64,000 bases of DNA, from positions 26,225,462 to 26,289,461 of the forward strand of contig OX424557.1 in the NCBI GenBank assembly GCA_949152475.1, given 5' to 3'. Below the pieces are notes generated by a model. The model was not told the DNA's origin. It ran no database searches and saw only the letters and a program-made list of their open reading frames with translations. Numbering within the stretch: position 1 is the stretch's first letter; every line of letters begins with the position of its first letter. Below, one piece after another: positions 5,301-61,637 of the stretch. Both the position numbers and the translations under genes were made by a program. The DNA is from Terebella lapidaria (taxonomy: Eukaryota > Annelida > Polychaeta > Terebellida > Terebellidae).

Positions 5301-8300
5301 ATCAGTGATGACACACATGCATGATGAACCTGTAAAGAAGGAACAGGACATGTCACATATTCTTGCACCTTCCCAGCAAGAGGTATCTGACGTGTCCAGG
5401 AGTAAGCCAGCGAAAACGCCCAGGTTGTCACAACCTTCCCCCTTGAAGTCACCATCAGCAGAAGCCACAACTCCGTGCATGTACTTGTATGATGATAAAC
5501 ACAAGCCATTTGATGTGGTGAAGTCCCCCGGACGGTCCTTGATGCACTCTCCAAGACAGGGTAGAAATGAGTCTTTGACACATAGATCTCCCAAGGTGTC
5601 AATTCAAGAATTGTCAGTGGCTACACCGTTGTCAGTGGCTACACCGTTGGCATCAGAGAAAGTGCCTGAGCAGGATCTGGCACTAAGACTTGCAGAGAAA
5701 TCACCCAACAAGCCTGAAAGTGAACAGTCACAAATTACTCTGACATCGTCAGTGGCAGAATCTCAGAAAAATCCTGATGAAAGCTTAAAACTGATACTGT
5801 CAGTCATTTCCTCAGGCCAGACATTAGCAAGTGGAAGTAACCTTCAGCCAGAATTAAATTCATCAAGTCTTGGCGGAACATCCACATTACCAACTGGTAG
5901 CATAGAGAACTTTGCACCATCTTCATTACCACCTGGATCATATCCGTGGAATACCATGCCGTGGCCTGCACCGGAGTCTGTATGCCAGCCCAATACAAGC
6001 CAAACAGGAAATGTTAGTGGCCATCAAGCCATCACTGCATCAAGTGTCAGTCGTACTGTGACATGCACAGTTTCGGACGTACATGTTAATGTTGGCACTT
6101 GTACAGTATCAGAAGAGATCTCACAGCCACAGGTACAGTCAGAGGAGTATCAAATGTACCCTGGTGACTTGGGTACCTTGGAGTCTGCTGTACCAGGGCA
6201 ATGCAACCAATCTTCTGTTACTGATAACCAGCCATCAACCACTAATACAACCTCTAATCTAAGTCATGAAGGCTTGACAGAAACTACTCAAGACAATACT
6301 GCAGACCAAAATATGTCTACTGCTCAAGAGACTGCAGAAAAGAGAGCTCCAATCAGAATCAAGATGAATGCCAAGAAGCTCAATACTGACAGTCTCCTGA
6401 ACCCTTCTGCACAAGTTATCAACATGGATGGAGAGGTGCTGCCCACTCCCGGAGCAGGGAAGTCAACGCACATGTCCACGTTCCGTGAGGCGGCCCAGCA
6501 AGCCATGGATCCAGAGAGGACAGATGAGACGCCAGCGCCCCAACCCGACCCACTCGGCATAGATTTGGTGCTCAGTCAGCTCCTCGACCAGGACGAGCAT
6601 ATCAGGAAGATGGACGAACAGATAACAGACCAGTCGAAAAGCCAAGACCATCGGAGATCCTCGAGGTTCAACCGCAGACGATCCCGGACAAGGTCGACAT
6701 CAAGGTCACGTTCTCGATACAGGAGGCGCCAGAGGTCAAGGTCAAGACATAGGATAATTTCAAGAGCAACTCAGCCCAGACAGAGATCGAGGTCCAGGAA
6801 TAGAAGACATTCAAATTCCAGGTCCAGATACAACTCAAGGTCAAGAAGACGATCGAGGGGAAGGTCAATATCCAGAAGGAGGTCAAGGTCTAGATTAAGG
6901 TCAAGGACTAGATCGAGGTCCAGGAGGTCGAGGTCTAGAGGAAGGTCAAGGTCAAGGAGGACACCAAGGATGTCAAGGTCAAGGGAAAGGCAAGAGTCTC
7001 AGTCAACTGGAAGACATTTGCCATCCTCAAGACAAAACTCCAGAGATGAGTCTCAATTCAGGTCAAGAATGGAAAAATCAGGTTCTAAATCCCCAGTACT
7101 GCAGCACAAAGACTTGCAGAGCAATGGTCCAGCAGCAATGTCAGAGGCAGGCAGTCCAGATTTCGGAATGTTCAAATCTGAACAACAAAAGTGCACAACT
7201 AGTCTAGAAGGCCCTATCTCAGGGTACCATGCGCAAGTTCCCAATGTAGAAGTGCCACGAAGTCCAGAGGCAACGAACATGATTATCAGGCACGATGAAA
7301 GATTTGAAACAGAAGCATCTAGAGTCACAACTAATGAGGCTGATCACACTGAAGAATACGATGGAAGTTTGATTGTGTCCGCTACGAACGAGACAATTGA
7401 AGAAAAACGACACCTGATTGATCCAGAAATTACAGTCCTATGTCCAACCACGGCTCCAGGTCATATCAATCTCAATGTCAACTCACAGGTCGAGACTTCT
7501 GCAGAAAATTTGGACACCCACAAGTCTGGTGTGGAAGATATACTCTCAGCAGTTGTCACTGAGAACATGGACTATGAAGAATACTTGAAAATACATCAAG
7601 CCCATTCCATCATTGACAATGTAACACCTGCCGCTGACCAGCAAAGTATTGAAGAATCTGCTTTGTATTCAGACATACATGAATCCAAGACTTCTGATAC
7701 AGTTGTTCAGAGCACTGCGGGTACTGAAGTTTGTTCACCAAGTGTTCCAGCCTCCTCTGAAGGTTTGACATTCCAGCCATCTGTGAGTGATTTGCAGCCA
7801 GGTGCACAAAAATTCCAAGTTGCAAACCTTATTGTTACTGAGGGTGCTGCTACTTGTACTTCTGAAACTTCTCCTGTTTCAAGCCATGTCAATGTTCCAC
7901 CATGTGACAGTATAACTTCCAAGCTGGAGAACTACTTTACCGAAAAGGTACCAAACTGTGCTGTGACTCATCAACTAAAGCCATGTGTCGCCTGCAAATT
8001 ACATGACCTTGAGCCAGAAGAGTATGCCCCATGTGGATTGCATGCATCAATCTATCCTAGTCACACTGCTTTCCCAACCTTGCTACCCAATCTTCCTAAT
8101 ATATCTTCTAATGATGATCTCGGACTATTTCAGACAACAGAATATGAGCCATCAGGTACTATTGACAAAATGACATTTGCTCTTTCCCCTCAGTTGAAGA
8201 CGGAAGTGACTCCCGAACAAGCTGTGGATAAGAACTGTAATATTGGTGCTATGCCTACTGCAGATTGTGTTCGTGACATAATGGAAAGGGAACGTCACAA

Positions 8301-9903: not shown

Positions 9904-12900
9904 GTTGCCTGCGGGGTACTGTTTTGTGGAGTTCGCAGATGCAGAGGATGGACACAGGGCAATGCTGCGACTGAGTGGCAAGGTCATTCCAGGATCGAAG
10001 CCGGTAAGTGTCAGAGCAGTGACAAGGGGAGTCCAAGTCTGATTGGTATATCACACCAACATACCGTAATAACAACTAGACGTCAAGGCCTAAAGATGCC
10101 TTGGAGGCATTTCGGTGTGATGATTAATTTATAATATATACTAGATATCGACGAAAATGAATAATGTCGACTCCGCAAAAAAATTTACCGTTAAAATAAT
10201 ACCCCTTAGACATGTTTGTCTAGGGCGACGAGTCCGAAAAAAAAGTCCGTTTCGCTCTACGACTCACCGTTTCCGAGATATCAACGAAAACGAAAAATGC
10301 CAACTCGGCAAAAAATTTTTTAGTCAAGGTCAAAGTTCATCCATAATACATATAAGATAAATGTTGTCTAGAGCGACGAGTCCGAAAATAACGTCCGTTT
10401 CGCTCTACGACACACCGTTCCCAAGATATCGACGAAAACGATAAATGCCGACTCGGCAAAAAAATTTCGGGTCAAGGTCAAAGTTCATCCATAATACCCC
10501 TTAGACATGTTTGTCTAGGGCGACGAGTCCGAAAATAACGTCCGTTTCGCTCTACGACACACCGTTCTCGAGATATCGACTAAAGCGAAAAATGCCGACT
10601 CGGCAAAAAAATTTCGGGTCAAGGTCAAAGTTCATCCATAATACCCCTTAGACATGTTTGGGTAGGGTGACGAGTCCGAAAATAACGTCCGTTTCGCTCT
10701 ACGAAGCACCGTTTCCGAGATATCGACGAAAACGAAAAATGCCGACTCGGCAAAAAAATTTTGGGTCAAGGTCAAAGTCCATCAAGAATACCCCTTAGAC
10801 ATGTTTGTCTAGGGCGACGAGTCCGAAAATAACGTCCGTTTCACTCTACGACGCACCGTTTCCGAGATATCGACGAAAACGAAAAATGCCGACTCGGCAA
10901 AAAAATTTCGGGTCAAGGTCAAAGTTCATCCATAATACCCTTAAGACATGTTTGTCTAGGGCGACGAGTCCGAAAATAATGTCCGTTTCGCTCTACGAAG
11001 CACCGTTTCCGAGATATCGACGAAAACGAAAAATGCCGACTCGGCAAAAAAATTTCGGGTCAAGGTCAAAGTTCATCCATAATACCCCTTAGACATGTTT
11101 GTCTAGGGCGACGAGTCCGAAAATAACGTCCGTTTCGCTCTACGACACACCGTTCCCGAGATATCGACGAAAACAAAAAATGCCGACTCGGCAAAAAAAT
11201 TTCGGGTCAAGGTCAAAGTTCATCCATAATACCCCTTAGACATGTTTGTCTAGAGCCACGAGTCCGAAAATAACGTCCGTTTCGCTCTACGAAGCACCAT
11301 TTCCGAGATATCGACGAAAACGAAAAATGCCGACTCGGCAAAAAAATTTCGGGTCAAGGTCAAACTTCATCAATAATACCCTTAAGACATGTTTGTCTAT
11401 GGCGACGAGTCCGAAAATAACGTCCGTTTCGCTCTACGACGCACCGTTTTCGAGATATCGGCGAAAACGAAAAATGCCGACTCGGCAAAAAAATTTCGGG
11501 TCAAGGTCAAAGTTCATCAATAATACCCCTTAGACATGTTAGTCTAGGGCGACGAGTCCGAAAATAACGTCCGTTTCGCTCTACGACTGACCGTTTCCGA
11601 GATATCGACGAAAACGAAAAATGCCGACTCGGCAAAAAAATTTGGGGTCAAGGTCAAAGTTCATCCATAATACCCTTAAGACATGTTTGTCTAGGGCGAC
11701 GAGTCCGAAAATAACGTCCGTTTCGCTCTACGACGCACCGTTTCCGAGATATGCAGGATGCCTCAAGGATGACTCAGCAAAAAAATTTTTCGACCTCTAG
11801 GTCAAAGGTCGTTTGACGTATCGATCCCAAAATCAATAGGGTTCTTCCCTGTTGATATATAAACCTCCGTGCAAAATTCTGCAACTATTGCCTGAATATT
11901 TTTCGAGTTATCCTCCGGAAACCAAGTTTCAAGATCAGCCTCGATTTCATCCTCAAGGACCTCACGGACCTCGGAGCCGGACCAAAAAAAATAATACACC
12001 CTAGGGATGTTTGTCTAGGGCGACGAGTCCGAAAATAACGTCCGTTTCGCTCTACGATGCACGGTTTCTGAGATATGCAGGAAGCCTCAAGGATGAATCA
12101 GCAAAAAATTATTTCGACCTCTAGGTCAAAGGTCGTTTGACAGATCGATCCCAAAATCAATAGGGTTCTTCCCTGGTGGCATATGAACCTCCATGCAGAG
12201 TTCTGCAACTATTGCGTAAATATTTTTCCAGTTATCGTCCGGAAACCAAGTCTCAAAATTAGCCTTGATTTCATCCTCACGGACCTCACGGACCTCGGAT
12301 CCGGCTCAAAAAGAATAGGGTTCTTCCACATATCATTTCTGACTTGTGGTGAAAATTTGACGAGGATCCGTCAAGGCAATCTAAAGTTATCGTCCGGAAA
12401 CCAAAAGTGGCGGAAAAAGAAAAAAAAAAAAAGAAAATAAAAAATTCTGCTAAAACCATAAAGGCATTTCTGCCGAAATGCCTTAATAATTGTACAAATT
12501 GGTTAAATACAAGTTAAGTTACTGTCAAATTATGATAACATGTATTGTTCATTCAGAGGTAATTCCTTTGTAAAACTATTAAATTTATTTATATTGAACT
12601 TCATGCCATTTTGTTATACATTCTTACCAATCTTGTTTAGCCAAAGCTGTTCAAACTGAATCATGCCACTCACGGTCGGGAGCATCTCAGAAAGTAAGTA
12701 CTGGGGAACTGTCTTGAGAATGTGTGGAATAATCACTATTTACCAAAGATGATTAAGTGAAACTTGAACATAGAGTGTTTGCATTAGCAGTAGGAGCTGA
12801 TATAATATGTGTGAGTTGAGAGTATCTCTTGTTATCAGGGAGGAGTTTTCGCTGTTCATCGGGGATCTGTCAGAAGAGGTTGATGATCTGATGCTGTACA

Positions 12901-24869: not shown

Positions 24870-25198
24870 GCTCATATCCGGCTTATTATCGATTTTACAG
24901 CTAAGGAATCAAAATTTTGTGCACATGTATATAGGAAATGATATAGTCCGAATATTCTGATGACCTTGAATTCGACCTTTGATCTCATTCTCAAGGTCAG
25001 TGCACAAAATAAAGTGGCTAATATCTTCGTTATTGTCGACTTTACAGCTTAGGAATCAATTGTGAACACATAGGAAACGATATATGTTGAATATTGTTAG
25101 GATCTTGAATTTGACCTTTGACCTTATTTTCACAGGGCAAAATGGCTAATATCGCGCTTATAGGCCTAATTAAATTATAGCTTAGGAATCAATTGTGC
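24870..25198. repeat. AGGTCA-rich satellite remnant, left of the LTR element
   Basis: About 2.5 diverged monomers carry the words GGCTAATATC, CAGCTTAGGAATCAATTGTG, ATAGGAAATGATAT and TTGACCTTTGACC. The same consensus forms the array at 57,686-58,810. The array is cut at 25,198 by the retrotransposon and resumes at 33,253. Confidence 0.75.
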
Positions 25199-41840: not shown

Positions 41841-44800
41841 ATGGCGACGTTGTGGAAGCAGGCGATTTTTCCGTCCCTGGCAAATCGAGCCAGACTAGGT
41901 CTGTTTATAAAGTCATTCCAGACTTTTTGAGCTATTGAAAACATTTATAGTTCTAGCAAGTACCATTGTTCTCACTTCAATGCAATGTAGTTCCTTATTT
42001 GCTGCATTTAGAAAGTGACAGTTTCTGGGCGTATTCTTTTTTAGACTGATGTCACTGAATACTCTCAGTCACTGTATCTCATATTTTTAGGCCACCAGCT
42101 GTTTAATAACACTTTTTACAGTCAAATATTCCATACCAAGTTACCCAATCTCAGGGCCTAAATGTTAGAACAATTCAACCCTGACTCCACAGTTATTCCA
42201 GAGATTGTATTCCCATTCAACATTTCTGGTTTGCAATGCCATTAATGTGCAAAGGTGTTCATCTTAATTAACATTTCAGGTTTGCAATTATTTCATGACA
42301 TTCAATGTTTATGTCATATACCTGTAGATATATCTAAATACAATAAATGTAAATCTTGCAAGCAATATCATCCAAATGACATTTCGAAAGAAATGCGCAG
42401 AGCAATTTGCAATACACAACTTTAATTAAAAGCGATTTTAATTATAGCAGATCTTTAGGTTTGGAAATTATTGAGATGTGGGAGAATTTTTTTTATAAAT
42501 TGTTGTATTTCATAACGCAAAATACAAGTACAGGTACAATACAGGTCTGATTATAAGTGGAGCAATGCAATTCTCCAAGTCTGTTTTGTTTAATTAGTTT
42601 CTTGTGACATCTTCAACAGAATGCCAACGATGCCTGGGATCTACTCCTGTAACATATGCAGCGGCTGCCAAAGCACAAACTTCAGGTACTAGTAATAGCA
42701 TTGAAAGTATTTTACTGGTGTTTCTTATACATGTTATAGTTATGGTGGTTATCATCTCATAAAATGCCCATAAAGTTGTTAGTATATAACTTGCAATACT
42801 GTTGAAGACAAACCACTCTAGTTTTACAGTTATCAATGAAATTAATTTACTAGTATTGAATTTCAGTTAGACTTTAATATATATTTACGGTCATAAAACC
42901 ATATAGTAGAGAGGGGTGATCGGTGGATTTACTGACACTAATTTGAATGCAAGCCCTACTCACGCTGTTGACTGTTGACCTTTCTGTTGAGACAATAGTC
43001 CATTCATCATAGGTGCACTTGTCAGCTGTGGGTTACAAACTAGAACACCAAAGATAAGAATGAGATATCCTGTACTCAGGTTTACAAACTGAAAAGTGAT
43101 TATTCTCTATATCTCTCAGTAAATGGTTTGATTGTGTATCTTCATGTGTACAAATTGTAAATGCCATACTTGAAACGTACCCATTCTTCTGTTGGTTCTT
43201 GCTTTGATCAGTTGATGGCCTGTCGTGTCCTGTTTGTGGGAAATCTTACAAGAGACGGGGTTGGCTCACTAAACATATCAAGGCAGTCCATGAGAATCCT
43301 GATGCATCTAATTTATCACATTCTAACAATAAATCAACTCCATCTCGAGTTAAATGCAAAAGTGTAATGAATGATTTATGCTTCCAAAATGAACCTGTAA
43401 GTGCAGCTTTATTTCGTCCGAGACAGAAAGACAATTCCACTGATTCTGATAAGTTCTTCCCATTCTTGACTGAACAACTGCAACTGTTTCTTGAACAATT
43501 TCATAAGAAGTATTATTTTCCTAATGATATGAAATGGGACATCAAAATCTCAGTCAGACAGCAAAACTCAAGTGAATCTTATTTTGAAAATAATGGTAAT
43601 GACACAGACGTCAAAGTTGTTGGACTCACCAATGATAATGAGCCACAGATTGAAAATAAGTATGAGCTATCATGGACTTGGCCGAATTTGTCGATAGACA
43701 GCCGGAATAAACTACAGGCTAAGTTACTTGGTGAGTGATATTTGAAGTACGGGGGTACATTGTTGTATTAGTGCATGACACACACTGTGAGTTGAATGAT
43801 TGTCAAGTTGAGGATGAGTGCATCCATCCAATATCATTGCATCCATTGTTGCTCTACCTTCAGGATATGATTGTGTATTCCCCAGTTGATCCTACCCGTA
43901 GTCAAGGCAGCACTGCCATTCTTCATGAGCAAGCATTGTAGAGCAGAGATTGTAGCACCTGAAGGTTTTCTCTCAGTCACTACCACTGATTTCGCAAAAA
44001 TAGCCTGGCAAATGTCGCATGTGTACATTTGGTTGCATGACTTGACCTTCGGATAATGCTCACTCAATGTTTGGTTGTCTTGGACTGTTGCTGGTTCGTA
44101 CAAATGAAAACTAATCATCAATTTTGTGAAATGAAAAATAGAAAGATAGGACTTGCAACTTGCCAAAATTGCAAGTTTTGCTCATTTGAATGTTTTGCTC
44201 ATTTTGTTGTACAAAAAATTTACTATGATCACTTGGTAGCAGCATATAGTCGCCCAGCATTTGACTGTTATGACTGTTGCAGACAAGAAGCGTCTGAGCA
44301 AGCCTGGGGTCAAGGACATTGTGTTGGTGGAAGGAGTGCGGACTCCATTCTGCCAGTCAGGCACCGCCCTGAAGGATGTGATGGCTCATGATCTCGCCAG
44401 GGCAGCTCTGCTGTAAGTGGCTGGTTTTAGCAGCATGCGCTCAACATGGCATTCCAGCATTTGCTGATCATGCTTAATCACCCATATGCACCAATTCATG
44501 TGCAGTCTCAAACTTCCTGCCAACTTTTTCAGTTTCTAAATATGAAATCGGACGGTTGTGAAATCTAAGTTGAACATTAATCAATAAGTTGTATGCCAAT
44601 TTCACATTGTTGAAATATGAGTATGATTATGCACAATCTCTGAGGCTCACAGACATGTTTTGTGAAATTTATAGGGTTTGTAATAAAACAAAAATTGTGT
44701 TCTTTTCTCAGTGGTCTGGTGAAGAGGACAAATATCCCACAAGGTACATGTAACACTGCTAAAAATCAAGCAATCTCATGATACATTTCAATATTAGTTG

Positions 44801-47800: not shown

Positions 47801-50800
47801 TCCGATTTCGGTAAAATTTTGAAAGGACTGAGCCACCACCATAGCACTTTTGCCCTATAAATTTCAAATCGATCGGACCGTTTGCCTTTGAGTTAATAGC
47901 GCGGACATTTGCACTGAAACGTCGCTGGCCAAAAATTAGCCCAAAGGCTAAGATAGGTTACCGGACAATTTTGGTTTGGCCATGGCAGCATTGGCAGGTA
48001 ACAGACTTTGAGATTTACCAATCAAGGTTCGCAGTGTAAACATATGACCTTGGGATTTACCATTCAAGGTCATCCGTATGAACTTCGATGTTACCATTAC
48101 ATGTATGTGTGCGGCATTTGATATTCTATATTTTGGGTGGAATCGTTTAGGCCGCTCAGGTCAATTTACACATTCTAAGTCAGACATTTGGCACTCAAGG
48201 TCATCTGACGTCAAGTTCAAGGTCATCATTAGTTGTGCCATATATGTCTTCCTATATGTTCATAATGCAAACATGAGCTCTATCTGCAAGCATTTCATCT
48301 ACAGAGGCAAATCTGGGCATTTTTTGACCCCAAAATGGCTGTTTTGACCTTTCAAGGTCATCGAAGGTCAAATTCAAGGTCACCACACAAGTCGCCATAT
48401 ATGACTTCCCATTTGAAAGTACCAATTTCTAAGCTCTATCTTCAAGCGTTCTATGAGTACAGTCCTGACAGCTCCCATTATGAAGGAAAAAAGTGCCGAA
48501 AATTTTCTAAGTCCAAAATTTTTTTCAAAGGGTGAAAATTTTTTTTTGCCTAGAAATGGCCCAAAATGGATAGTAATGTTATTTGGGGCGAAAAATTTTT
48601 TTTTCGCCGACTCGTCAAAAATTCAAAATGGCCGCCACACTGAGATCGGCGATTCAAGGGCAACAAAACTTATACACGTCGCAGAGGTATATAAGAGGTA
48701 TATGGCCCAAAATGGATAGTAATGCGATCTGGGGCGAAAAAAAATTTTTTCGCCGACCCGCCAAAAATTCAAAATGGCCGCCACACGAAAACCGGCAGAT
48801 TTAGGGCAACCAAACTTATACATATCACAGAGGTATATGAGGGGAATCTTTTGAAACCAAAAACTCAAAACTGATCAGACAGTTTTTGAGAAAATGGCCG
48901 TCAAAGTCCAAAATTGAGCGTTTTTCGACAAAAACGGCCGCCATTTTGAAAAAAATGTGAAAATCAAAAAACAAAAAAATACCTCCTTCTCAAAATATTT
49001 TTAGGCATTTTTGTGCAAAATTTCAGAAAGATTCGATCGTTAACTTTAAAGATAAAAATGTTAACGCCGGACGGACGGACGGACGGACGGACGACGGACG
49101 CAACGCCATGCCAATAGGTTATCGGACCAAAGGTCCGGTAACCTAAAATAACTGAAATCGTGACCCCCAATTTTTCGACATCGGGCGATAATGGAGAGTT
49201 TTCATCGTACGAGGATTGGTCGTACACCAAACGATCGGGAATTGGCCAAAGAACAATACAAAAATAGTTGGAAAAATTAATATCAGGTAGAACCGGAGTT
49301 AGAGCCAATTATGTGATTTTCTTTTTTTCCGTTGCCATGGCAACCGTTTTCATCCGATTTTGGCAAAAATTTGAAGGGACTGAGCCAGCACCATAGCACT
49401 TTTGCCCTATAAATTTCAAATCGATCGGGCCGTTTGCCTTTGAGTTATGAGCGCAGACATTTGCACTGAAACGTCGCTGGCCAAAAAAAAATCGAAACCG
49501 TGACCCCCAATTTTTCGACATCGGGCGATAATGGAGAGTGTTCGTCGTACGACCACGGGCCATATATCAGATGATCAGGAATTGGCCATAGAAAAATACA
49601 AAATTAGTTAGAAAAATTTATCTTGAATAGAACCGGAGTTATGGTCAATTATTGATTTTTACATTTTCCGTTGCCATGGCAACAGTTTTTGTCCGATTTT
49701 GACCAGATTCGAGGAGGACCGAGCCACTGAGATACCGCTTCATCCCTATAAGTTTCATGTTGATCGGACCATTCTCCTTTGAGATATGCGCGCGGACAGA
49801 CAAACATACAAACAAACAAACATACAAACGGACAGACCCAATTGCAATACCCTCTGCCCCTATCGGGGCGAGGGTAATAACAAAACATTCAAACAATACA
49901 TGTTTGTACAATATAAATGCAGACAGGGCAAATCATTCCCCAAGCATGTTGTGTCATGTGTGTTGGCTTATTAACCAACTATTGTATTCTGTGGGATGGA
50001 ACTTCATTCTTTTACCATGTACACACACTAGTAAACCAGGCTTTGGAGGGGGGAGTGAGGGATAATGCATGGATATGAGCCTAGGGTCATGTTGGACATG
50101 CTAGCTGTATCACTTGTCAGGCATACTGAGCAGGGCTGGCTGAGAGGGGTGGAGCCTATTTCTGTGCTGGACAGACTGGCTGATCTTGTCAGGCATGACT
50201 GAGCAGGGCTGGCTGAGAGGGGCGGAGCCTATTTCTGAGCTGGACAGACTGGCTGATCTTGTAAGGCATGACTGAGCAGGGCTGGCTGAGAGGGGCAGAC
50301 CCCATTGCTGTGCTGGACAGACTGGCTGATCTCCTGCACTGGCTGAGAGGGCAGAGCCTAGCCTCATGCTGGACATGCAGGCTGCAGTCAGTGAATACAG
50401 TAGCATGGCTCAGTTACAGTATTACATCTGCATGGGCGCAGGCGAGGGAAAAATTCTGTCCAAAAAAAAAAAAAATGCACCTACAAAAATTTTTTTCCTC
50501 TGGAAATTGCCTGAATCAAATTATGACATTGACAGGAATCGCCCGATTTTTTTTTCCAAAATGGCCGCTGGCGGCCATCTTGGATTTCGGATCTCGACGA
50601 AAAACAATAGGGGTTAGAAGCAAAGTATTTCGGATGAGCTGTGAAAATTTCGGAAAGATAGATTAAGGCGTTCAAGAGTTATGATCCGGAAACCAAACGG
50701 CGGAAGAAAAAAAAAAAAAAAAAAAAACAGAAAAAAAAAAAAAAAAAAGAAAAAAAAGAAAAAAAAAAAAAAAAAAAAAAAAAAAGAAGAAGAAAAAAAA

Positions 50801-51161
50801 AAAAAATTAGCCCAATGGGCTAGAAAGGTTACCGGAGAAATATACAGAGTTAAGCCGAGAAAGTTGAAGGTCAAATTCAAGGTGACCACTGAAATCGCCA
50901 TATCTCTAACCGTGAAAATGGGATCAAAGGTTAAATTCTAGATCACCAAACTATTCAGCATACATCATTTCCTATATGTTCACTATGGACCCCAAGCTGT
51001 AAATTTGATAATAAGCGAGATATAAGCCATTTTGTAATCTGACTTTGAAAATAAAATGACCGACCTTGAAATTTAGGTCAAAGGTCAAATTCAATATCAT
51101 TGAAATATTCAGAATATATCATTAAGGCATTTCGGCAGAAATGCCTTTATGGTTTTAGCAG

Positions 51162-51210
<49 letters not shown>

Positions 51211-54200
51211 CTTCTTCCGCCACTTTTGGTTTCCGGACGATAACTTTAGATTGCCTTGACGGATCCTTGTCAAATTTTCACCACAAGTCAGAAATGATAT
51301 GTGGAAGAACCCTATTCTTTTTGAGCCGGATCCGAGGTCCGTGAGGTCCGTGAGGATGAAATCAAGGCTAATTTTGAGACTTGGTTTCCGGACGATAACT
51401 GGGAAAATATTTATGCAATAGTTGCAGAACTCTGCATGGAGGTTCATATGCCACCAGGGAAGAACCCTATTGATTTTGGGATCGATCCGTCAAACGACCT
51501 TTGACCTAGAGGTCAAAATAATTTTTTGCTGATTCATCCTTGAGGCTTCCTGCATATCTCAGAAACCGTGCATCGTAGAGCGAAACGGACGTTATTTTCG
51601 GACTCGTCGCCCTAGACAAACATCTCTAGGGTGTACTTTTTTTTTTGATCCGGCTCCGAGGTCCGTGAGGTCCGTGAGGATGAAATCGAGGAACTTGGTT
51701 TCCGGACGATAACTCAAAAAATATTCAGGCAAAAGTTGCAGAATTTTGCACGGAGGTTTATATATCACCAGGGAAGAACCCTATTGATTTTGGGATCGAT
51801 ACCTCAAACGACCTTTGACCTAGAGGTCGAAATAATTTTTTGCTGAGTCATCCTTGAGGCATCCTGCATATCTCGGAAACGGTGCGTCGTAGAGCGAAAC
51901 GGACGTTATTTTCGGACTCGTCGCCCTAGACAAATATGTCTAAGGGGTATTATGGATGAACTTTGACCTTGACCCGAAATTTTTTTGCCGAGTCGGCATT
52001 TTTCGTTTTCGTCGATATCTCGGAAACGGTGCGTCCTAGAGCGAAACGGACGTTATTTTCGGACTCGTCGCACTAGACAAACATGTCTAAGGGGTATTAT
52101 GGATGAACTTTGACCTTGACCCGAAATTTTTGTGCCGAGTCGGCATTTTTCGTTTTCGTCGATATCTCGGAAACGGTGCGTCGTAGAGCGAAACGGACGT
52201 TATTTTCGGACTCGTCGCACTAGACAAACATGTCTAAGGGGAATTATTGATGAACTTTGACCTTGACCCGAAATTTTTTTGCCGAGTCGGCATTTTTCGT
52301 TTTCGTCGATATCTCGGAAACGGTGCGTCGTAGAGCGAAACGGACGTTATTTTCGGACTCGTCGCACTAGACAAACATGTCTAAGGGGAATTATTGATGA
52401 ACTTTGACCTTGACCCGAAATTTTTGTGCCGAGTCGGCATTTTTCGTTTTCGTCGATATCTCGGAAACGGTGCGTCGTAGAGCGAAACGGACGTTATTTT
52501 CGGACTCGTCGCACTAGACAAACATGTCTAAGGGGTATTATTGATGAACTTTGACCTTGACCCGAAATTTTTTTGCCGAGTCGGCATTTTTCGTTTTCGT
52601 CGATATCTCGGAAACGGTGCGTCGTAGAGCGAAACGGACGTTATTTTCGGACTCGTCGCACTAGACAAACATGTCTAAGGGGTATTATGGATGAACTTTG
52701 ACCTTGACCCGAAAATTTTTTGCCGAGTCGGCATTTTTCGTTTTCGTCGATATCTCGGAAACGGTGCGTCGTAGAGCGAAACGGACGTTATATTCGGACT
52801 CGTCGCACTAGACAAACATGTCTATGGGGAATTATTGATGAACTTTGACCTTGACCCGAAATTTTTTTGCCGAGTCGGCATTTTTCGTTTTCGTCGATAT
52901 CTCGGAAACGGTGCGTCGTAGAGCGAAACGGACGTTATTTTCGGACTCGTCGCACTAGACAAACATGTCTGTGGGGAATTATTGATGAACTTTGACCTTG
53001 ACCCGAAATTTTTTTGCCGAGTCGGCATTTTTCGTTTTCATCGATATCTCGGAAACGGTGCGTCGTAGAGCGAAACGGACGTTATTTTCGGACTCGTCAC
53101 CCTAGACAAACATGTCTAAGGGGTATTATGGATTAACTTTGACCTTGACCCGAAATTTTTTTGCCGAGTCGGCAGTTTTTGTTTTCGTCGATATCTCGGA
53201 AACGGTGCGTCGTAGAGCGAAACGGATGGTATTTTCGGACTCGTCGCCCTAGACAAACATGTCTAGCGGGTATTATGGATGAACTTTGACCTTGACCCGA
53301 AATTTGTCGACATTTTTCATTTTCGTCGATATCTAGTATTATAAATTATTCATCACACCGAAATGCCTCCAAGGCATCTTTAGGCCTTGACGTCTAGTAT
53401 TTTATATGGACTTGTCTTATGGGGAGATCATGACACCTATCGATTTTGGTTGCCATAGCAACCAAATTGGCCGATTGGCGACACATTTTGTGACGAAATC
53501 AGCAATTTCAACACCCATGGCTTGTGAACGCTCTAGAAGTTGTAATTTTAAAGGAATCACTACAATATTGAACAGGCTCGTTGAACAATGCTCGGGCACG
53601 AAACCTATTGTTTTTCGTAAAGATTGAATAAATATTAATAAGTTCATGAGATAACTTATTACATCAATGTGAAATATCCAGTTTGAGATCTCTGATCATT
53701 CCAGTTGATTGATATCTGCAAACAAATCACACTGGACATGTGTACAAATTTACAGTTGATGGTTTTGTGTGAAGAGATTACTTTTACTGAATAAGTTAAC
53801 ATAAATTTTAATAGTGTAACTTTAGTTTTACTAGTTAAGTTTATTACTGGCCACTATAAGAATAGTTAGGCAAAGAAACATTTATTATCATGATTATTGG
53901 GCTCAACAAGGTAAAGGTTGTGTCCAGTACTGACTTTATGGTTGCAGTACCATTGATATTCGTGAATAAGTTAACATTAGTATTGCTAGTTAACATGGTT
54001 AGGTCTATTATTGAGCACAATAAAAATAGTTAGGTAAGGGACATTTATTATTGGGATCAATGAAGAAAAGGTTGTGTCCAGTAGTGATTTTATGGTATAG
54101 TATCATTGATATTAATGAATAATTTAACATTAATTTAACATTAATTAAGTCTATTAATGAGCACAATAAAAATAAAAAAGTTCCAGGTGAGGAACATTTA

Positions 54201-57200
54201 TTACTGGGCACATATCATGAGTTAAATTATAACTTGCGGTGAAAGTTCGATCTGGCTCCAATTTCGTCATCTTGAAATACAGTTTTGGTCAAATTTTACT
54301 TTGAATTTCAACTTGAAACCAAGTTTGACACAAATTTAGAGTTAAAATATAACTTATGGTGAAAACTTCGATCTGACTCCAATTTCGTCATCTTGAAATT
54401 CATTTTTGGTCAACTTTCACTTTGAATTTCAGTTTGAAACCAAGTTTGGCACATAATTTGAGTTAAAATCCAACTTATGGTGAAAAGTTCGATCTGACTC
54501 CAATTTCGTCATCTGGAAATGCAGTTTTGGTCAACTTTTACTTTGAATTTCAGCTTGAAATCAAGTTTGGCACATATTATGAGTTAAAATATAACTTATG
54601 GTGAAAAGTTCGGTCTGGCTCCAATTTCGGCATCTTGAAATGCAGTTTCGGTCAATTTTTACTTTGAATTTCAACTCGAAACCAAGTTTTGCACATATTA
54701 TGAGTTAAAGTATAACTTACGGTGAAAATTTGATTTGGCTCCAATTTTGTCATCTTGAAATGCAGTTTTGATTTTCAACTTGAAACCAAGTTTGTCATAT
54801 ATTCTGAGTTGAAATATAACTTTTGATGAAAACTTTGATCTGGCTGTAATTTCGTTATCTTATCGAACATGTTGAGATGGAAATTCACATGCACAGTCGT
54901 GACCTTGAATTTGACCTTGAAAGGTCAATGCAGCAATTTTTGTGGGGAAAAAACAGTTTGGGCTTGAGCGTGTTAGGATTTTACATTTCTCTGGTAATCA
55001 TTTTAGCCCTTGCTCTAGTTTTCCACGCTTCTCAGTAATATTTCGGGCGACAGGGATGATGGGGCCACGGGGGATACACCCAAGCGGTCATAGGCGACCG
55101 GAAGCATCTAGTTATGTATGTACCTGACGTAGTTTATAGCTTTAACAAATGGGACTTTGTGTTAAATGAACTGGGCCCAGTAACTCGAAGCCTACGTTAC
55201 GCTATTGAACTGCACCATGTGTACACTGTTTCTACATCCCGGTACATGTACCAGTAGGTTTTTGACTTAAACATTCACCTTAACTGTTAAACGAGGAGAT
55301 TATGGCGTTGAGTCATCACCAAGCTGGGTCAAAACATCGACTATGGTCTGAATTTGAACTCATTTAATTTTTGGACTTATAGATCAAAAGTCAAGGCCAG
55401 GAAAAATGGAGGACATTAATTCTGAACCTTATGGATGTACATGTATTCCATCATAAAAGGAGTGGTTCGGTATCATGCAGGTTACAATGCATAGATAATG
55501 TTATGGCGTCAAATTACATGTTTACCAAACCAGAAGTAAAATTATTAAGGCATTTCGGCAGAAATGCCTTTATGGTTTTAGCAGAATTTTTTTTCTTCTT
55601 CCGCCACTTTTGGTTTCCGGACGATAACTTTAGATTGCCTTGACGGATCCTTGTCAAATTTTCACCGCAAGTCAGAAATGATATGTGGAAGAACCCTATT
55701 CTTTTTGAGCCGGATCCGAGGTCCGTGAGGTCCGTGAGGATGAAATCAAGGCTAATTTTAAAACTTGGTTTCCGGACGATAACTGGAAAAATATTTATGC
55801 AATAGTTGCAGAACTCTGCATGGAGGTTCAAATGCCACCAGGGAAGAACCCTATTGATTTTGGGATCGATCCGTCAAACGACCTTTGACCTAGAGGTCAA
55901 AATAATTTTTTGCTGATTCATCCTTGAGGCTTCCTGCATATCTCGGAAACCGTGCGTCGTAGAGCGAAACGGACGTTATTTTCGGACTCGTCGCCCTAGA
56001 CAAACATCTCTAGGGTGTACTTTTTTTTTTGATCCGGCTCCGAGGTCCGTGAGGTCCGTGAGGATGAAATCGAGGAACTTGGTTTCCGGACGATAACTCA
56101 AAAAATATTCAGGCAATAGTTGCAGAATTTTGCACGGAGGTTTATATATCACCAGGGAAGAACCCTATTGATTTTGGGATCGATACCTCAAACGACCTTT
56201 GACCTAGAGGTCGAAATAATTTTTTGCTGAGTCATCCTTGAGGCATCATGCATATCTCGGAAACGGTACATCGTAGAGCGAAACGGACGTTATTTTCGGA
56301 CTCGTCGCCCTAGACAAACATGTCTAAGGGGTATTATTGATGAACTTTGACCTTGACCCGAAATTTTTTTGCCGAGTCGGCATTTTTCGTTTTCGTCGAT
56401 ATCTCGGAAACGGTGCGTCGTAGAGCGAAACGGGCGTTATTTTCGGACTCGTCGCCCTAGACAAAAATGTCTAAGGGGTATTATTGATGAACTTTGACCT
56501 TGACCCGAAAATTTTTTGCCGAGTCGGCATTTTTCGTTTTCGTCGATATCTCGGAAACGGTGCGTCGTAGAGCGAAACGGACGTTATTTTCGGACTCGTC
56601 GTCCTAGACAAACATGTCTAAGGGGTATTATGGATGAACTTTGACCTTGACCCGAAAATTTTTTGCCGAGTCGGCATTTTTCATTTTCGTCGATATCTCG
56701 GAAACGGTGCGTCGTAGAGCGAAACGGACGTTATTTTCGGACTCGTTGCCCTAGACAAACATGTCTAAGGGGTATTATGGATGAACTTTGACCTTGACCC
56801 GAAATTTTTTTGCCGAGTCGGCACTTTCCGTTTTCGTCGATATCTCGGAAACGGTGCGTCGTAGAGTGAAACGGACGTTATTTTCGGACTCGTCGCCCTA
56901 GACAAACATGTCTAAGGGGTATTATGGATGAACTTTGACCTTGACCCGAAATTTTTTTGCCGAGTCGGCAGTTTTCGTTTTCGTCGATATCTTGGAAACG
57001 GTGCGTCGTAGAGCGAAACGGATGGTATTTTCGGACTCGTCGCCCTAGATAAACATGTCTAAGGGGTATTATGGATGAACTTTGACCTTGACCCAAAATT
57101 TTTTTGCCGAGTCGGCATTTTTCGTTTTCGTCGATATCTCGGAAACGGTGCGTCGTAGAGCGAAACGGACGTTATTTTCGGAGTCGTCGTCCTAGACAAA

Positions 57201-60200
57201 AATGTCTAAGGGGTATTATTGATGAAGTTTGACCTTGACCCCAAATTTTTTTGCCGAGTCGGCATTTTTCGTTTTCGTCATTATCTCGGAAACGATGAGT
57301 CGCAGAGCGAAACGGACGTCATTTTTGGACTCGGCGATCTAGACAAACATGTCTAAGGAGTATTATGGATGAACTTTGACCTTGACCTTAAATTTTTTAC
57401 CGAGTCTGCATTTTTCGTTTTCGTCGATATCTCGGAAACGATGCATTGTACAGCGAAACGGACGTTGTTTTCGGAGTGGTGGCTCTAGACAAACATGTCT
57501 AAGGGGTATTACTGATGAACTTTGACCTTGACCTGAAATGTTTTTTTGCTGAGTCGACATTTTTCATTTTCATCCATATCTAGGAAACGATGTGTCGTAG
57601 AGCCCATGGCAAACATGTTTTAAATATTACAAATTAGTCCTAACACCGAAATGCCTCCAAGGCATCTTTAGGCCTTGACGTCTAGTTTCCTATATGTTCA
57701 CAATTGATTCCTAAGTTGTAAAGTCGATAATAAGCAAGATATTAGCCATTTTGTCCTGTTGACCTTGAAAATGAGGTCAAAAGTCAAATTCAAGGTCACT
57801 AGAATATTCAGCATATATCATTTCCTATATGTTCACAATTGATTCCTAAGCTGTAAAGTCGATAATAAGCAAGATATTAGCCATTTTGTCCTGTTGACCT
57901 TGAAAATGAGGTCAAAAGTCAAATTCAAGGTCACTAGAATATTCAGCATATATCATTTCCAATATGTTCACAATTGATTCCTAAGCTGTAAAGTCGCTAA
58001 CAAGCAAGATATTCGCCATTTTGTCCTGTGACCTTGAAAATGAGGTCAAAGGTCAAATTCAAGGTCACGAGAATATTCAGCATATATCATTTCCTATATG
58101 TTCACAATTGATTCCTAAGCTGTAAAGTCGATAATAAGCGAGATATTAGCAATTTTGTCCTGTGACCTTGGAAATGAGGTCAAAGGTCAAATTCAAGGTC
58201 ATCAGAATATTCAGCATATATCATTTCCTATATGCTCACAATTGATTCCTAAGCTGTAAAGTCGATAATAAGCAAGATATTAGCCATTTTGTCATGTGAC
58301 CTTGAAAATGAGGTCAAAGGTCAAATTCAGGGTCATGAGAATTTTCAGCATATATCATTTCCTATATGTTCACAATTGATTCCTAAGCTGTAAAGTCGCT
58401 AATAAGCAAGATATTGGCCATTTTGTCCTGTGACCTTGAAAATGAGGTCAAAGGTCAAATTCAAGGTCACGAGAATATTCAGCATATATCATTTCCTATA
58501 TGTTCACAATTGATTCCTAAGCTGTAAAGTCGATAATAAGCGAGATATAAGCCATTTTGTGCTCTGACCTTGAAACTGAGGTCAGAGGTCAAATTCAAGG
58601 TCACGAGAATATTCAGCATATATTATTTCCTATATGTCCACAATTGATTCCTAAGCTGTAGAGTCGATAATAAGCGAGATATAAGCCATTTTGTGCTCTG
58701 ACCTTGAAACTGAGGTCAGGGGTCAAATTCAAGGTCACGAGATTATTCAGCATATATCATTTCCTATATGTCCACAATTGATTCCTAGTCTCTAATCTCA
58801 ATATCAAGTGAGATATTAGGCATAATGTGTCCCATTATAAAGCATAGGAGAATTTAACATGGGAAAGTCCCATTTGGGCCGAGTTTGGGCCAAAATGGCC
58901 CACTTCGAGCGATTCAAGCGCAACGAAATTTATAGACATCATAGGAGTACATACAAGGAGTCTTATGTATCAAAAAGAAAAAAAGTTACTGAACAGATTT
59001 TGAGAAAATGGCCGCCAAAGTCCAAAATCAGGCATTTTTCGTCGAAAACGGCCGCCATTTTGAAAAAAATGCGAAAATCAAAAAACTAAAAAATACCTCC
59101 TTCTTGAATTATTTTTAAGTATTTTTCTGCAAAATTTCAGAAAAATTCGCCCGTAAACAAAAAAGATAAAAATGTGGACGACGACGACGACGACGACGGA
59201 CGACGGACGACGGACGCAACGCCATGCCAATAGGTTATCGGACCATAGGTCCGGTAACCTAAAAACAGACAAAAACATAAGGCCTCCCGATTTTCAATCG
59301 GGATGCCTAAATATACCAGTAAGTCATTTGGATGATACTACATGTATTGGGAAGGCAGATGGGTTCCAGGGATTCCCCCTGTGTACCTACCAGACTGTCT
59401 AGTATAGAGATTTTCATGTTCTGTTTTTTCTTCGACTCAGGTATGGGCTACATCTCCTCAGGATATGTGGACGCTGTGATAGCAGGCGGAGTAGAGACGA
59501 TGTCCGATGTTCCGATCAGACACAACCGTAACATGCGCAAACTCATGCTGTCGATGAACAAAGCCAAAACTGCTGGGGCAAAGTTCGGCGTAGTCTCCAA
59601 AATGCTGAGCCCAAAGATGTGGGTTCCAGAGGTATATTTGACATGTTGATGACCAGAATGGAATTGATACTTTGTTCAGATGTGTCCACTGATATGTGGT
59701 ATGTGGTACAATAATTACCAACTGTGTGGAAGTCTGTTGACACTTGCCTGTTTTCTGTCACACAGTTGCCTGCTGTAGCTGAGTTCTCCACTGGAGAGAC
59801 GATGGGTCATTCTGCCGACCGTCTGTGTGCGGCCTTTGCCGTGTCTCGGGCTGAGCAGGTGTGTGCACTAGACACGTGCTCCGTACTTGTGTGTATCGTA
59901 TTAAAATTTAATGTAGCTCGTATAATAGGTATACATGTATTGGCATTATCTCACAATATTATGTATGAAATCTTGAAATTTGTTTGATCAGGATGAGTAT
60001 GCGAGTAGATCACATAACATGGCACACAAGGCAACAGAAGAAGGCTTGCTGGCAGATGTGCTATCCTACAAACCACCAGGTAAACATTTTGTGCTCAGGT
60101 GTCATAGAGTCTTCATGTTGCAAAGTATTACATGTAGCTATTGCTGGCCCAAGTATCATATTCTGCGCCTTTCTCTATATTCAATAAGGATTAAAAAGGT

Positions 60201-61637
60201 GACAGACGGATTAAATGACATTCATTTAGTGGACGAGTAGTATTAAGGCGCAGTGTATGATACTTGGGCCCTATTGCTCAGTAGTCAAGGCTACTTGGAG
60301 TGTACGATGTGTTTGAGAACATGATTTCATTCAGAATGTGCAAGAGCACACCATTAGAAACAATCTGGATGATGTAGGTATGTATGTAGGTACGTACTTG
60401 GTGTTGCAGGTAGCTCCAAGACAGTTGACAGAGACAATGGAATCCGACCATCAACACCAGAACAAATGGGCAAACTCAAACCAGCATTCATCAAGCCACA
60501 TGGAACAGTCACTGCTGCAAATGCCTCGTTTTTGGTATGACACATACTGGTAGTGTACTGGAATATTGGAGTACTGGAATATATACTGTTGGAAAAAAAT
60601 TGTCTATGTTTTGTGTGTTATACCGGGTATGATTTTACATGCCGCCTACTGCCTTGCAGACTGATGGTGCCTCTGCGAGTTTGATCACATCAGCAGAGAA
60701 AGCCCAGCAGCTTGGCTTGACTCCCAAAGCCTACCTTAGAGACTATGTGTATGTCTCCCAAGACCCCAAAGATCAGCTGTTGTTAGGGTATGTACTTAGC
60801 TGTGAAGGTCATATGTGTCTCCCAACCAAACTTCAACGGATACTGTGAATTTGCTTCACCAGTGCAGTACTAAATCACTAAACATGTTCAATGCTACAGT
60901 ATATTGATTGATGACTATTGATTTTATTCAACTTGTCTTATTTTGCATCACTACAGGCCTGCATATGCCACACCCAAAATACTAGCGAAGAATGGCTTAT
61001 CATTGAGTGACATTGATGTTTTTGAATATCATGAAGCTTTTGCTGTAAGTTTCCGATGTTTTTAGTGTTCATATTTTCTGTTGCTGCCACATTGAAAGAT
61101 GTAGCCCATGAAATCCAATACCATTTTGAACCATGAGCACATCACCTCCCTTCATATATCTTTGCTGTTACAGGGACAAATTCTGGCAAACCTGAAGGCA
61201 CTAGATTCAGATTGGTTTTCACAGAACCACCTTGGTCTGAAGGAGAAGGTTAGAACAAACAAAACACAAAAACAGGACAACTGTGCTCATGTATGTTGTA
61301 GAGTGAGTTAGCTGGTGTACAGTGCCTGCAAAAGCCGATGTTGTGTTCCAGATTGGGGCGCCACCTATGGAAAAGTTCAACAACTGGGGCGGTTCGCTGT
61401 CAATTGGTCATCCGTTCGGTGCCACGGGAGTGCGCTTGGCGATAACTGCTGCCAATCGGCTGCATAAAGAAAACGGACAGCTTGCTCTAGTGGCTGCCTG
61501 TGCAGCTGGAGGCCAGGTCTGACTTCTACAAAGTGCTTTGTTGTGCCTTAGAAACTATCATTGATTGTTTGTCACAGTTGTTGTCACATGGTAATTGATG
61601 GTTTCAGGGAGCTGCAATGCTTATTGAGAGATTCTGA
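41841..61637 (+). CDS. HADHB: mitochondrial trifunctional enzyme subunit beta (3-ketoacyl-CoA thiolase)
   Basis: Exons: 41,841-41,898; 42,620-42,685; 44,283-44,412; 44,712-44,743; 44,904-44,971; 45,138-45,225; 59,441-59,631; 59,766-59,858; 59,992-60,079; 60,410-60,534; 60,660-60,787; 60,957-61,044; 61,174-61,248; 61,352-61,516; 61,608-61,637. They total 1,425 nt, giving 474 residues, the human length. The enzyme cleaves 3-ketoacyl-CoA with CoA in the last step of long-chain beta-oxidation and pairs with HADHA at the inner mitochondrial membrane. Seen are a basic N-terminal targeting region, the nucleophile-Cys block QACISANQA, the [16 protein letters not shown] block, the thiolase motif [17 protein letters not shown] with its catalytic His, and the C-terminal Cys block AACAAGGQ. 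The intron after 44,971 has a GC donor (GCAAGT). Intron 6 is 14.2 kb of nested repeats, while most others are under 1 kb. Intron 2 holds a zinc-finger exon candidate. Confidence 0.97.
43212..43730 (+). CDS. candidate cassette exon or nested-gene exon with a C2H2 zinc finger
   Basis: This is a 519-bp stretch open in one frame, bounded by a good acceptor (pyrimidine-rich, ending TTGATCAG) and donor (GTGAGT). It lies inside HADHB intron 2 on the same strand. Its translation begins [18 protein letters not shown], a C2H2 finger of C-X2-C-X12-H-X4-H form, followed by about 145 residues I do not recognise, ending NKLQAKLLG. It enters and leaves in phase 1, the same phase as the HADHB exon 2/exon 3 junction, so inclusion would keep the thiolase frame. 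It could equally be one exon of a nested gene or a fragment of a non-LTR element, since R2-like elements carry similar fingers. No other exon of such a gene was found. Confidence 0.5.
45810..47230 (-). mobile_element. helentron/HINE-like element, family 2, copy D1
   Basis: The left end is TTAGCCCAAAGGCTAA (a small hairpin; as its complement it closes in CTAA) followed by AGGTTACCGGAC. The right end is a strong hairpin, CGGACC-AAA-GGTCCG, within GGTTAT...GTAACC. AGGTTACCGGAC is the subterminal inverted repeat. The body holds an internal duplication with a period of about 396 bp (46,170-46,380 and 46,565-46,775) rich in AAGGTCA. A GGAC-repeat microsatellite precedes the right hairpin. There is no coding capacity. 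Confidence 0.7.
47262..49880. mobile_element. helentron/HINE-like element, family 3, interrupted by copy D2
   Basis: The body is four monomers of about 310-340 bp sharing GAATTGGCCA, GTTGCCATGGCAAC, CGATCGGACCGTTTGCC and ACTGAAACGTCGCTGG. The left end has a small hairpin CAATC-AGA-GATTG and ACCCTCGCCC (47,292). The right end has a hairpin at 49,850-49,874 and the inverse GGGCGAGGGT (49,866-49,875). An AAAC/ACAT microsatellite lies before the right hairpin. Element D2 is inserted inside monomer 3. The exact outer ends are approximate. Confidence 0.6.
47936..49145 (-). mobile_element. helentron/HINE-like element, family 2, copy D2
   Basis: It has the same two ends as D1: TTAGCCCAAAGGCTAA with GGTTACCGGAC at the left, and the GGTCCGGTAACCTA hairpin at the right. 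It lies inside a family-3 monomer; the flanks GCTGGCCAAAA and AATAACTGAAATCG join to restore the monomer. The body resembles D1 but carries the AAGGTCA-rich segment once. GGAC microsatellite before the right end. Confidence 0.72.
50112..50390. repeat. 73-bp minisatellite
   Basis: GAGCAGGGCTGGCTGAGAGG recurs at 50,128, 50,201 and 50,274 (period 73), with a partial fourth unit. The units also share GGACAGACTGGCTGATCT. The repeat is G-rich, unlike its neighbours, and an open frame across it is not a gene. Confidence 0.85.
50455..50806. repeat. element remnant ending in a long A-rich tract
   Basis: The segment includes CCAAAATGGCCGCTGGCGGCC, then GATCCGGAAACCAAACGGCGG, which resembles the CCGGAAACCAAAAGTGGCGG of family 1, and then about 100 bases of nearly pure A. 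It is probably the truncated end of a related element. The A tract produces a false Lys-rich frame. Confidence 0.5.
51124..53398 (+). mobile_element. helentron/HINE-like tandem-repeat element, copy B (family 1)
   Basis: The 5' hairpin (AAGGCATTTC / GAAATGCCTT, 51,124-51,147) is followed by a T-rich tract, the 0.75-kb non-tandem part, about nine 147-bp monomers (51,900-53,335), and the 3' end with the small hairpin and CTAG (53,394-53,397). Monomer landmarks at 51,929, 52,076 and 52,223 are 147 bp apart. It is closely similar to copies A and C. Confidence 0.78.
51900..53335. repeat. 147-bp tandem array in copy B
   Basis: About nine monomers each carry TGCCGAGTCGGCA, TGAACTTTGACCT, CGGAAACGGTGCGTCGTAGA and AAACATGTCTAAGGGG. 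Neighbouring monomers are nearly identical, which suggests homogenisation after insertion or recent amplification. Confidence 0.9.
53399..55546. other. 2.1-kb segment X between copies B and C
   Basis: This unique-looking DNA is flanked by two same-strand family-1 elements. It contains two local tandem arrays: roughly 160-170-bp units at 53,780-54,200 (ATAGTTAGG, GGTTGTGTCCAGTA) and 121-bp units at 54,215-54,870. No gene was recognised; the frames are short. Confidence 0.7.
54215..54870. repeat. 121-bp tandem array in segment X
   Basis: GAGTTAAA starts recur at 54,219, 54,339, 54,460, 54,581 and 54,702, giving a period of 120-121 bp. Each unit has TCCAATTTCGTCATCTTGAA and TGAAACCAAGTTTG. About five and a half units. 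Confidence 0.9.
55547..57685 (+). mobile_element. helentron/HINE-like tandem-repeat element, copy C (family 1)
   Basis: It has the same structure and orientation as copy B: the 5' hairpin at 55,547-55,570, the non-tandem part, about nine 147-bp monomers (56,270-57,610), the small 3' hairpin and CTAG (57,682-57,685). Monomers near the 3' end are more diverged than those in the middle. Confidence 0.78.
57686..58810. repeat. 134-bp AGGTCA-rich satellite array
   Basis: CACAATTGATTCCTAAG recurs at 57,699, 57,834, 57,969, 58,103, 58,237, 58,371, 58,505, 58,639 and 58,773, a period of 134-135 bp. Most monomers read TGACCTTGAAAATGAGGTCA then AAGGTCAAATTCAAGGTCA, so each has an AGGTCAAAGGTCA (DR1) or close variant and one or two TCAAGGTCA sites. 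Part of element D3. Confidence 0.92.
60146..60270. mobile_element. 125-bp MITE with perfect 8-bp target duplication
   Basis: The ends GGCCCAAGTATCATA and TATGATACTTGGGCC are inverted repeats, extending to about 25 bp with two mismatches (CTGCGCCTT / AAGGCGCAG). The 8-mer CTATTGCT flanks both sides (60,138-60,145 and 60,271-60,278). The element lies in a HADHB intron. An 8-bp duplication suggests hAT or a related superfamily. Confidence 0.82.

Follow-up and report, generated by a model that had tools for sequence, protein, structure and literature searches.

How does a piece of one gene's intron come to lie, with a transposable element on either side, inside a single satellite monomer on another chromosome? 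This question is raised by a stretch of 64,000 nucleotides from the polychaete Terebella lapidaria (assembly GCA_949152475.1, contig OX424557.1, positions 26,225,462 to 26,289,461 of the forward strand), hereafter the window, in which two elements, B and C, enclose a segment that we call X. B and C are non-coding HINE-like rolling-circle elements of the form 5'-TTAAGG...CTAG-3', lie on the same strand and belong to one family (family 1). We consider it likely that an allele on another contig, C13, once carried both B and C, and that one rolling-circle event, running from the start of B to the stop of C, carried 6.56 kb into the satellite.

The B-X-C unit occupies one satellite monomer

The left border of B has the sequence ...GAATATATCA/TT-AAGG, the right border of C the sequence CTAG/TTTCCTATATG (a slash marks the border between element and target, or the insertion point in an empty site). 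Removal of 51122-57685 gives back a satellite monomer with no base gained or lost and without a target-site duplication, the target being CA/TTTCC in a 134-bp monomer (Table 1). When joined (70 + 70 bp), the two flanks align over 129-130 bp with seven plus-strand satellite stretches of the window, at 87.6-92.3% identity (counted among the first eight matches), and the string ATATATCATTTCC followed by T or A and then ATATG occurs seven times in the window. The eighth match is a minus-strand stretch near 25 kb (about 25011-25132; 86.9% over 122 bp), which means that the target satellite is present elsewhere in the window too. The last monomer of the left side is spaced 154 bp from its neighbour, compared with 134-135 bp on the right, and we therefore read the left flank as the divergent edge of the array.

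The original prediction, made from the letters of the window, had described two same-strand elements around a 2.1-kb segment and a monomer restored by their joint deletion. Both points are borne out, the first by the mapping of the elements (B and C on the plus strand, X 2147 bp long) and the second by the flank alignment. Of the borders that it gave, 51124 and 57685, the 3' one stands, and the 5' one moves to 51122, where the TT before AAGG is counted with the element. A restored monomer is by itself the weaker part of the evidence, because a pair of insertions into different monomers would give the same picture; among 29 distinct 3' flanks of family 1, one other (L049) marks an insertion at this very base in a similar satellite. 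The argument against two insertions in different monomers comes from the C13 locus. We rejected two independent satellite insertions, as X exactly fills the space from the 3' end of B to the 5' end of C and matches C13.

Segment X has an uninterrupted copy on C13

X was searched (query 53392-55540 of the window) in the window's own assembly (761.6 Mb, 438 contigs); the best 40 of 6080 candidates were scored, and the counts are lower bounds. Among the matches scored there is one other near-full copy, at C13:11674984-11677112 on the minus strand. With X in its final borders, this copy is identical to it at 2115 of 2130 aligned bases (99.3%) and differs by 15 substitutions and two indels of 5 and 12 bp. 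The C13 copy continues uninterrupted across both inner junctions and lacks B and C; a search of both strands of the surrounding 9.9 kb for four exact end strings of family 1 gave no match. The original prediction had called for a genome search for X, and the copy that this yielded, on another chromosome and continuous over both inner junctions, together with an A/T at each of them (see below), supports its view that B-X-C would have been inserted as one unit by read-through.

X itself is not simply the unrelated DNA for which it had first been taken. Its first 1.71 kb belong to a dispersed CTAG-ending repeat, family 2, with long copies at 88-94% among the matches scored; the best copy examined after that on C13 reaches 93.8% over 1748 bp. 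The second part is essentially single-copy, with full-length matches at C3 (the contig of the window) and C13 only and 13 further matches of at most 137 bases at 72-86%. On C13 the family-2 element is complete, from TTGTATCC to CTAG, including the 122 bp absent from X, and it lies in a gene of which two exons (joined by eye) match endophilin-B1 (E 9.4e-24); one of the two matches the BAR domain. Because C13 holds the complete family-2 element inside this endophilin-B1-like gene, we take C13 as the source side and the copy in the window as a cut piece. The idea that X is a single transposon between tandem copies B and C was rejected, as X consists of a cut family-2 repeat and 433 bp of intron that are contiguous in C13.

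Two histories in which C13 is likewise the origin of X have to be considered here. An assembly artefact could have joined an alternative C13 haplotype with B-X-C to the C3 satellite via the repeats B and C; their family has no fewer than 3046 exact 3' ends in the genome, and the evidence is that of an assembly. Such an artefact would take two mis-joins, independent of each other and each correct in order and orientation, and neither the window nor the 9.9-kb C13 stretch contains an N. We hold it to be extremely unlikely. Alternatively, a single satellite element might have been converted ectopically by a C13 allele carrying B-X-C, which gives the same final sequence and for which thousands of similar genomic copies provide homology. 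This would require a long conversion tract with a heterologous 2.1-kb insert and seems no simpler than direct transposition; we regard it as very improbable.

The 9.9-kb stretch (L031, C13:11671500-11681400) contains two family-2 elements in the same orientation, about 0.8 kb apart (reverse complement 4170-6000 and from 6779), downstream of the same endophilin-B1-like exon. Both start with TTGTATCCCCCGAAC after an A, and the first ends CTAG/TT.

Both C13 junctions are empty A/T sites

Read through the position of B's end, C13 has TTTTCATAA/TATTTTATATGG (ATAA/TATTTT), and through the position of C's start it has GAAGTAAAATTA/TTTTCAAAGC (AAATTA/TTTTC). Both are A/T, as expected of a donor site before the arrival of B and C. 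Given a local AT dinucleotide frequency of 0.104, both borders would be A/T by chance with a probability of 0.011 if border positions were random.

We compared these sites with the family-1 insertions of the whole genome. Among 3046 exact 3' ends, CTAG is followed by T in 3027 (19 non-T), with TT in 2860 and T followed by a non-T in 167. At exact TTAAGG 5' ends, found with search patterns that presuppose the TT, the preceding base is A in 1838 of 2005 and another base in 167. In the loci examined, distinct 5' flanks fitting the pattern end A/TT in 10 of 10 cases (leaving out the degenerate 5' end of L049, which has no TT before AAGG), and distinct 3' flanks begin with T in 46 of 46. Because A precedes TTAAGG in 1838 of 2005 ends, A/T is a better reading of the target than TT, and the simplest bookkeeping is best read as an element TTAAGG...CTAG in an A/T target. 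With TT counted as the 5' end of the element, the satellite site, the site of B in C13 and the site of C in C13 are all A/T, whereas the C13 site of B would read T/A if one T were counted at each end. The target between two Ts that was initially proposed is the same site shifted by one base, a variant of bookkeeping.

These junctions bear on two further alternatives. According to the first, C alone would have entered the satellite, and a B inserted in C13 would later have read into X, stopped at a cryptic site and landed at the A/T immediately left of C. A single missing donor insertion suffices for this history. Helraiser has been shown to read through to 3' ends that arise de novo, and Helitrons that abut one another are reported from bats (PMC4778049; this and the other papers are cited from excerpts). 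However, it leaves to chance that the end of X in C13 is a perfect A/TT empty site for C, and flush family-1 junctions (CTAG/TTAAGG) are rare, with 7 found against 3046 3' ends; we judge it unlikely. According to the second, B and C would have stood head to tail in the satellite, and a break between them would have been repaired with X copied from C13. Filler DNA is a described route of Helitron capture, with junction homology of 2-13 bp (PMC6544945), but the homology here is 0 bp on the B side (beyond the first base of X) and 2 bp (TT) on the C side, the break must fall exactly between two flush elements, and both borders of X are A/T in C13. We consider this repair history very unlikely.

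The single transfer of B-X-C from C13, by comparison, is the history that we prefer: the outer borders of the unit are the 5' end of B and the 3' end of C, the DNA between them is that of the source, and the source locus on C13 has junctions that match X.

Many of the 100 listed 5' ends among the 167 without a preceding A have a G instead, beyond what the seven flush junctions account for. Perhaps they inserted directly against other elements that end in CTAG.

Table 1 Features of the composite unit and its surroundings in the window (C13 positions refer to the source locus)
Feature	Position	Strand	Description
Composite unit B-X-C	51122-57685	+	6,564 bp; flanks join into a monomer; borders are element termini
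B	51122-53397	+	HINE-like element, TTAAGGCATTTCGG...GACGTCTAG, about ten 147-bp tandem repeats
B, 5' end	51122-51147	+	TT and self-complementary AAGGCATTTC-ggca-GAAATGCCTT
B, 3' end	53358-53397	+	Subterminal repeat CCGAAATGCCT, short palindrome, CTAG terminus
X	53398-55544	+	Captured segment, 2147 bp; other full-length copy at C13:11674980-11677109, minus strand
X, part 1	53398-55111	+	Family-2 repeat minus its first 122 bp; 154-bp and 121-bp tandem repeats
X, part 2	55112-55544	+	Essentially single-copy C13 endophilin-B1-like intron DNA, 433 bp
C	55545-57685	+	Second family-1 element, TTAAGG...CTAG, about nine 147-bp tandem repeats
Target satellite, left side	up to 51121		Divergent edge
Target satellite, right side	57686-58787	+	134/135-bp monomers
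A	10076-12486 (approx.)	-	Further family-1 element, flanks A/T

B and C resemble HINEs and proto-Helentrons

The first 14 bases of B and C are the same, as are the last 9; overall, 2031 of 2139 aligned positions are identical (94.9%), with a 263-bp stretch that matches at 98%. The third copy in the window, A, is identical to B at 2149 of 2254 aligned positions (95.3%) and to C at 1975 of 2139 (92.3%), so that C resembles B more closely than it resembles A. An origin of B and C as one recent concatemer was rejected, their overall identity being just 94.9% and not near-complete.

Both elements begin with a self-complementary block, contain a 147-bp array, carry subterminal inverted repeats close to either end and finish in a 3' CTAG. 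The 5' subterminal repeat AGGCATTTCGG begins at position 4, inside the self-complementary block of B (DNA fold -11.4 kcal/mol, z -5.6, computed for B only), and CCGAAATGCCT starts 40 nt and ends 29 nt from the 3' end. The distances published for the subterminal inverted repeats of mite HINEs are 2-4 nt at the 5' end and some 38-60 nt at the 3' end (PMC4067079), a range at whose limit, or just within it, the repeats found here lie. The 3' stem is short (CAAGG...CCTTG), and the DNA fold gives a z of only -1.3 for both 3' ends.

Canonical Helitron1 elements have a 5' TC and a 3' CTRR and insert between A and T (PMC4067079). B and C depart from this at their 5' end, which is TT and not TC, but agree in the 3' CTAG and the A/T target. 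Their 5' TT, 3' CTAG and insertion between A and T are shared with proto-Helentron-Pi of Phytophthora infestans, which is, however, about 14 kb long and protein-coding, whereas B and C are about 2.2 kb, consist mostly of tandem repeats and have subterminal inverted repeats (PMC4067079). With the oyster Cg_HINE (PMC7492417) they have in common the subterminal inverted repeats, an accompanying 5' inverted repeat, a central satellite-like array and the lack of a target-site duplication; the repeat unit here is 147 bp, unlike in Cg_HINE, and the target is best read as A/T rather than TT. The excerpts of that paper mention no composite carrying a host intron.

Directly left of B, a poly-A-rich stretch of the window (50572-50757) is inverted-complementary to the poly-T region of B (51165-51350) at 70% over 186 nt, and is perhaps the remnant of an opposite-strand family-1 copy.

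Host gene and rolling-circle machinery

The whole unit lies between thiolase exons, with Thiolase_N at 59440-59628 and Thiolase_C at 61307-61519, both above the Pfam cut-off; 44240-44413 resembles Thiolase_N below the cut-off. This places the composite in a thiolase (HADHB-like) intron on C3. The label HADHB, which we take over as presumably correct, is that of the original prediction; it is consistent with the thiolase domains and was returned by no search here.

When the best 150 of 234 candidates for Helitron_like_N (PF14214) were scored, the genome gave at least 150 matches, the longest of the open frames reaching 2866 aa. Since many of these matches have long open frames, we conclude that rolling-circle machinery exists in this genome. 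Many of the frames are about 2200-2870 aa long, and several PF14214 matches have identical scores on different contigs, a pattern in these predicted frames that suggests recent activity.

Other same-strand pairs of family 1

Among the first 100 listed 3' ends of family 1, neighbours less than 5 kb apart are on the same strand in 11 cases and on opposite strands in 1 (p 0.006). Ten of the 11 same-strand pairs were examined individually. By their appearance, seven are nested insertions or array or local duplications. Three of these are nested in another family-1 copy, as judged from the 3' flank alone (L038/L039, and two in L052-L054). Two belong to one array (L046-L048, C1 at about 1390700-1394700), in which family-1 copies of differing lengths share a common 122-bp spacer, found twice; the array could have come from unequal exchange, or else from a rolling-circle multimer in which element and spacer formed the unit. 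In the remaining two (L072, L076), the same or largely the same 3' flank follows both ends. Donor-like pairs therefore number about 3 per 100 sampled ends, and not 11; that there are such pairs speaks for the history that we prefer.

The three pairs with a spacer of their own are L073, L074 and L075. The spacer of L074 is 685 bp long and single-copy, and that of L075 measures 45 bp. In L073 (C1:5262097-5263478), the first 887 bp of the spacer also occur in at least 39 other places (best 40 of 951 candidates scored), and the junction between family 1 and spacer is found, with at most 2 mismatches, at 7 places (including L073 itself), of which 4 are exact. This pattern would suit a hot insertion site as well as a composite that has been amplified.

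A general composite mechanism in this genome is possible. We find it doubtful, however, that same-strand family-1 neighbours act as composite transposons throughout, with a missed terminator regularly replaced by that of the next copy. If this were true, host DNA between any two copies would be mobile, and introns would be shuffled genome-wide.

Discussion

The history that we propose for the unit begins on C13, where B would have inserted inside the family-2 repeat of the endophilin-B1-like intron (at ATAA/TATTTT) and C on the same strand 2.1 kb downstream (at AAATTA/TTTTC), both in one allele. A rolling-circle event, presumably driven by a Rep/helicase encoded elsewhere in the genome, would then have started at the 5' end of B, missed the palindrome and CTAG at B's 3' end, continued across X and halted at the 3' CTAG of C. 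The terminator of B would thus be the one that was read through and that of C the one that was used. The 6.56-kb product would finally have entered the satellite monomer at CA/TTTCC, in the putative thiolase intron.

Several observations weigh against this history. The assembly contains no C13 allele bearing B or C, and the reference haplotype must lack both insertions. If the T of each C13 junction is presupposed and the two A's alone are scored, the chance of both borders fitting, at an A frequency of 0.29, is about 0.29 x 0.29, or about 0.08. The 3' junction of B, CTAG/TA, is of an uncommon class, seen in only some of the 167 of 3046 ends with T and then a non-T, although the donor site of B does obey A/T. 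Differences between X and C13 are unevenly distributed, with 8 in 1708 positions of the family-2 part and 7 in 422 of the intron part (Fisher p 0.017, the split being set one base before the end of family 2), and a mixed history of X is therefore possible. Same-strand clustering of family 1, finally, is no independent proof; we rejected it as such because seven of the 11 pairs are nested, arrayed or duplicated.

Missed termination and composite transposition between neighbours have been suggested for HINEs and Helentrons (PMC4067079), and the present unit has the form expected of them, two neighbours and the intervening DNA moving as one. In that paper composite transposition is an expectation, whereas the present genome offers a legible source locus in which both junctions are empty. 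The same authors describe Helentrons that have picked up pieces of genes, with putative parental loci, namely histone fragments in Culex and a gene fragment in proto-Helentron-Pi. For Helraiser, a reconstructed bat Helitron, passage of the 3' end is established by experiment: when the intact element transposed, flanking DNA was captured in about 11.7% of cases (PMC4778049). As in its end bypass, a 3' hairpin terminator would here have been passed, flanking DNA carried along and the product inserted at A/T; unlike in Helraiser, termination would have occurred at the 3' end of another element of the same family and not at a de novo end, and the evidence is natural sequence rather than an assay. 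The excerpts of open-access literature that we searched contain no HINE composite with its donor locus, a search too narrow for a claim of priority. We see the case as an unusually complete new instance of something already known or proposed, and not as a new kind of process.

When rolling-circle transposons are said to have captured host DNA, the argument has often had only the product to go on. In the present genome one can read, base by base, the product as well as the empty target and the empty source, and the three jointly help to tell read-through to a neighbour's terminator apart from filler-DNA repair. The proposed history predicts that there were once alleles with B inserted at C13:11677109/11677110 and C at C13:11674979/11674980; they may be segregating even now. 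In conclusion, the B-X-C unit is a concrete candidate for the composite transposition suggested earlier for elements of the HINE type, a group abundant in some invertebrates.

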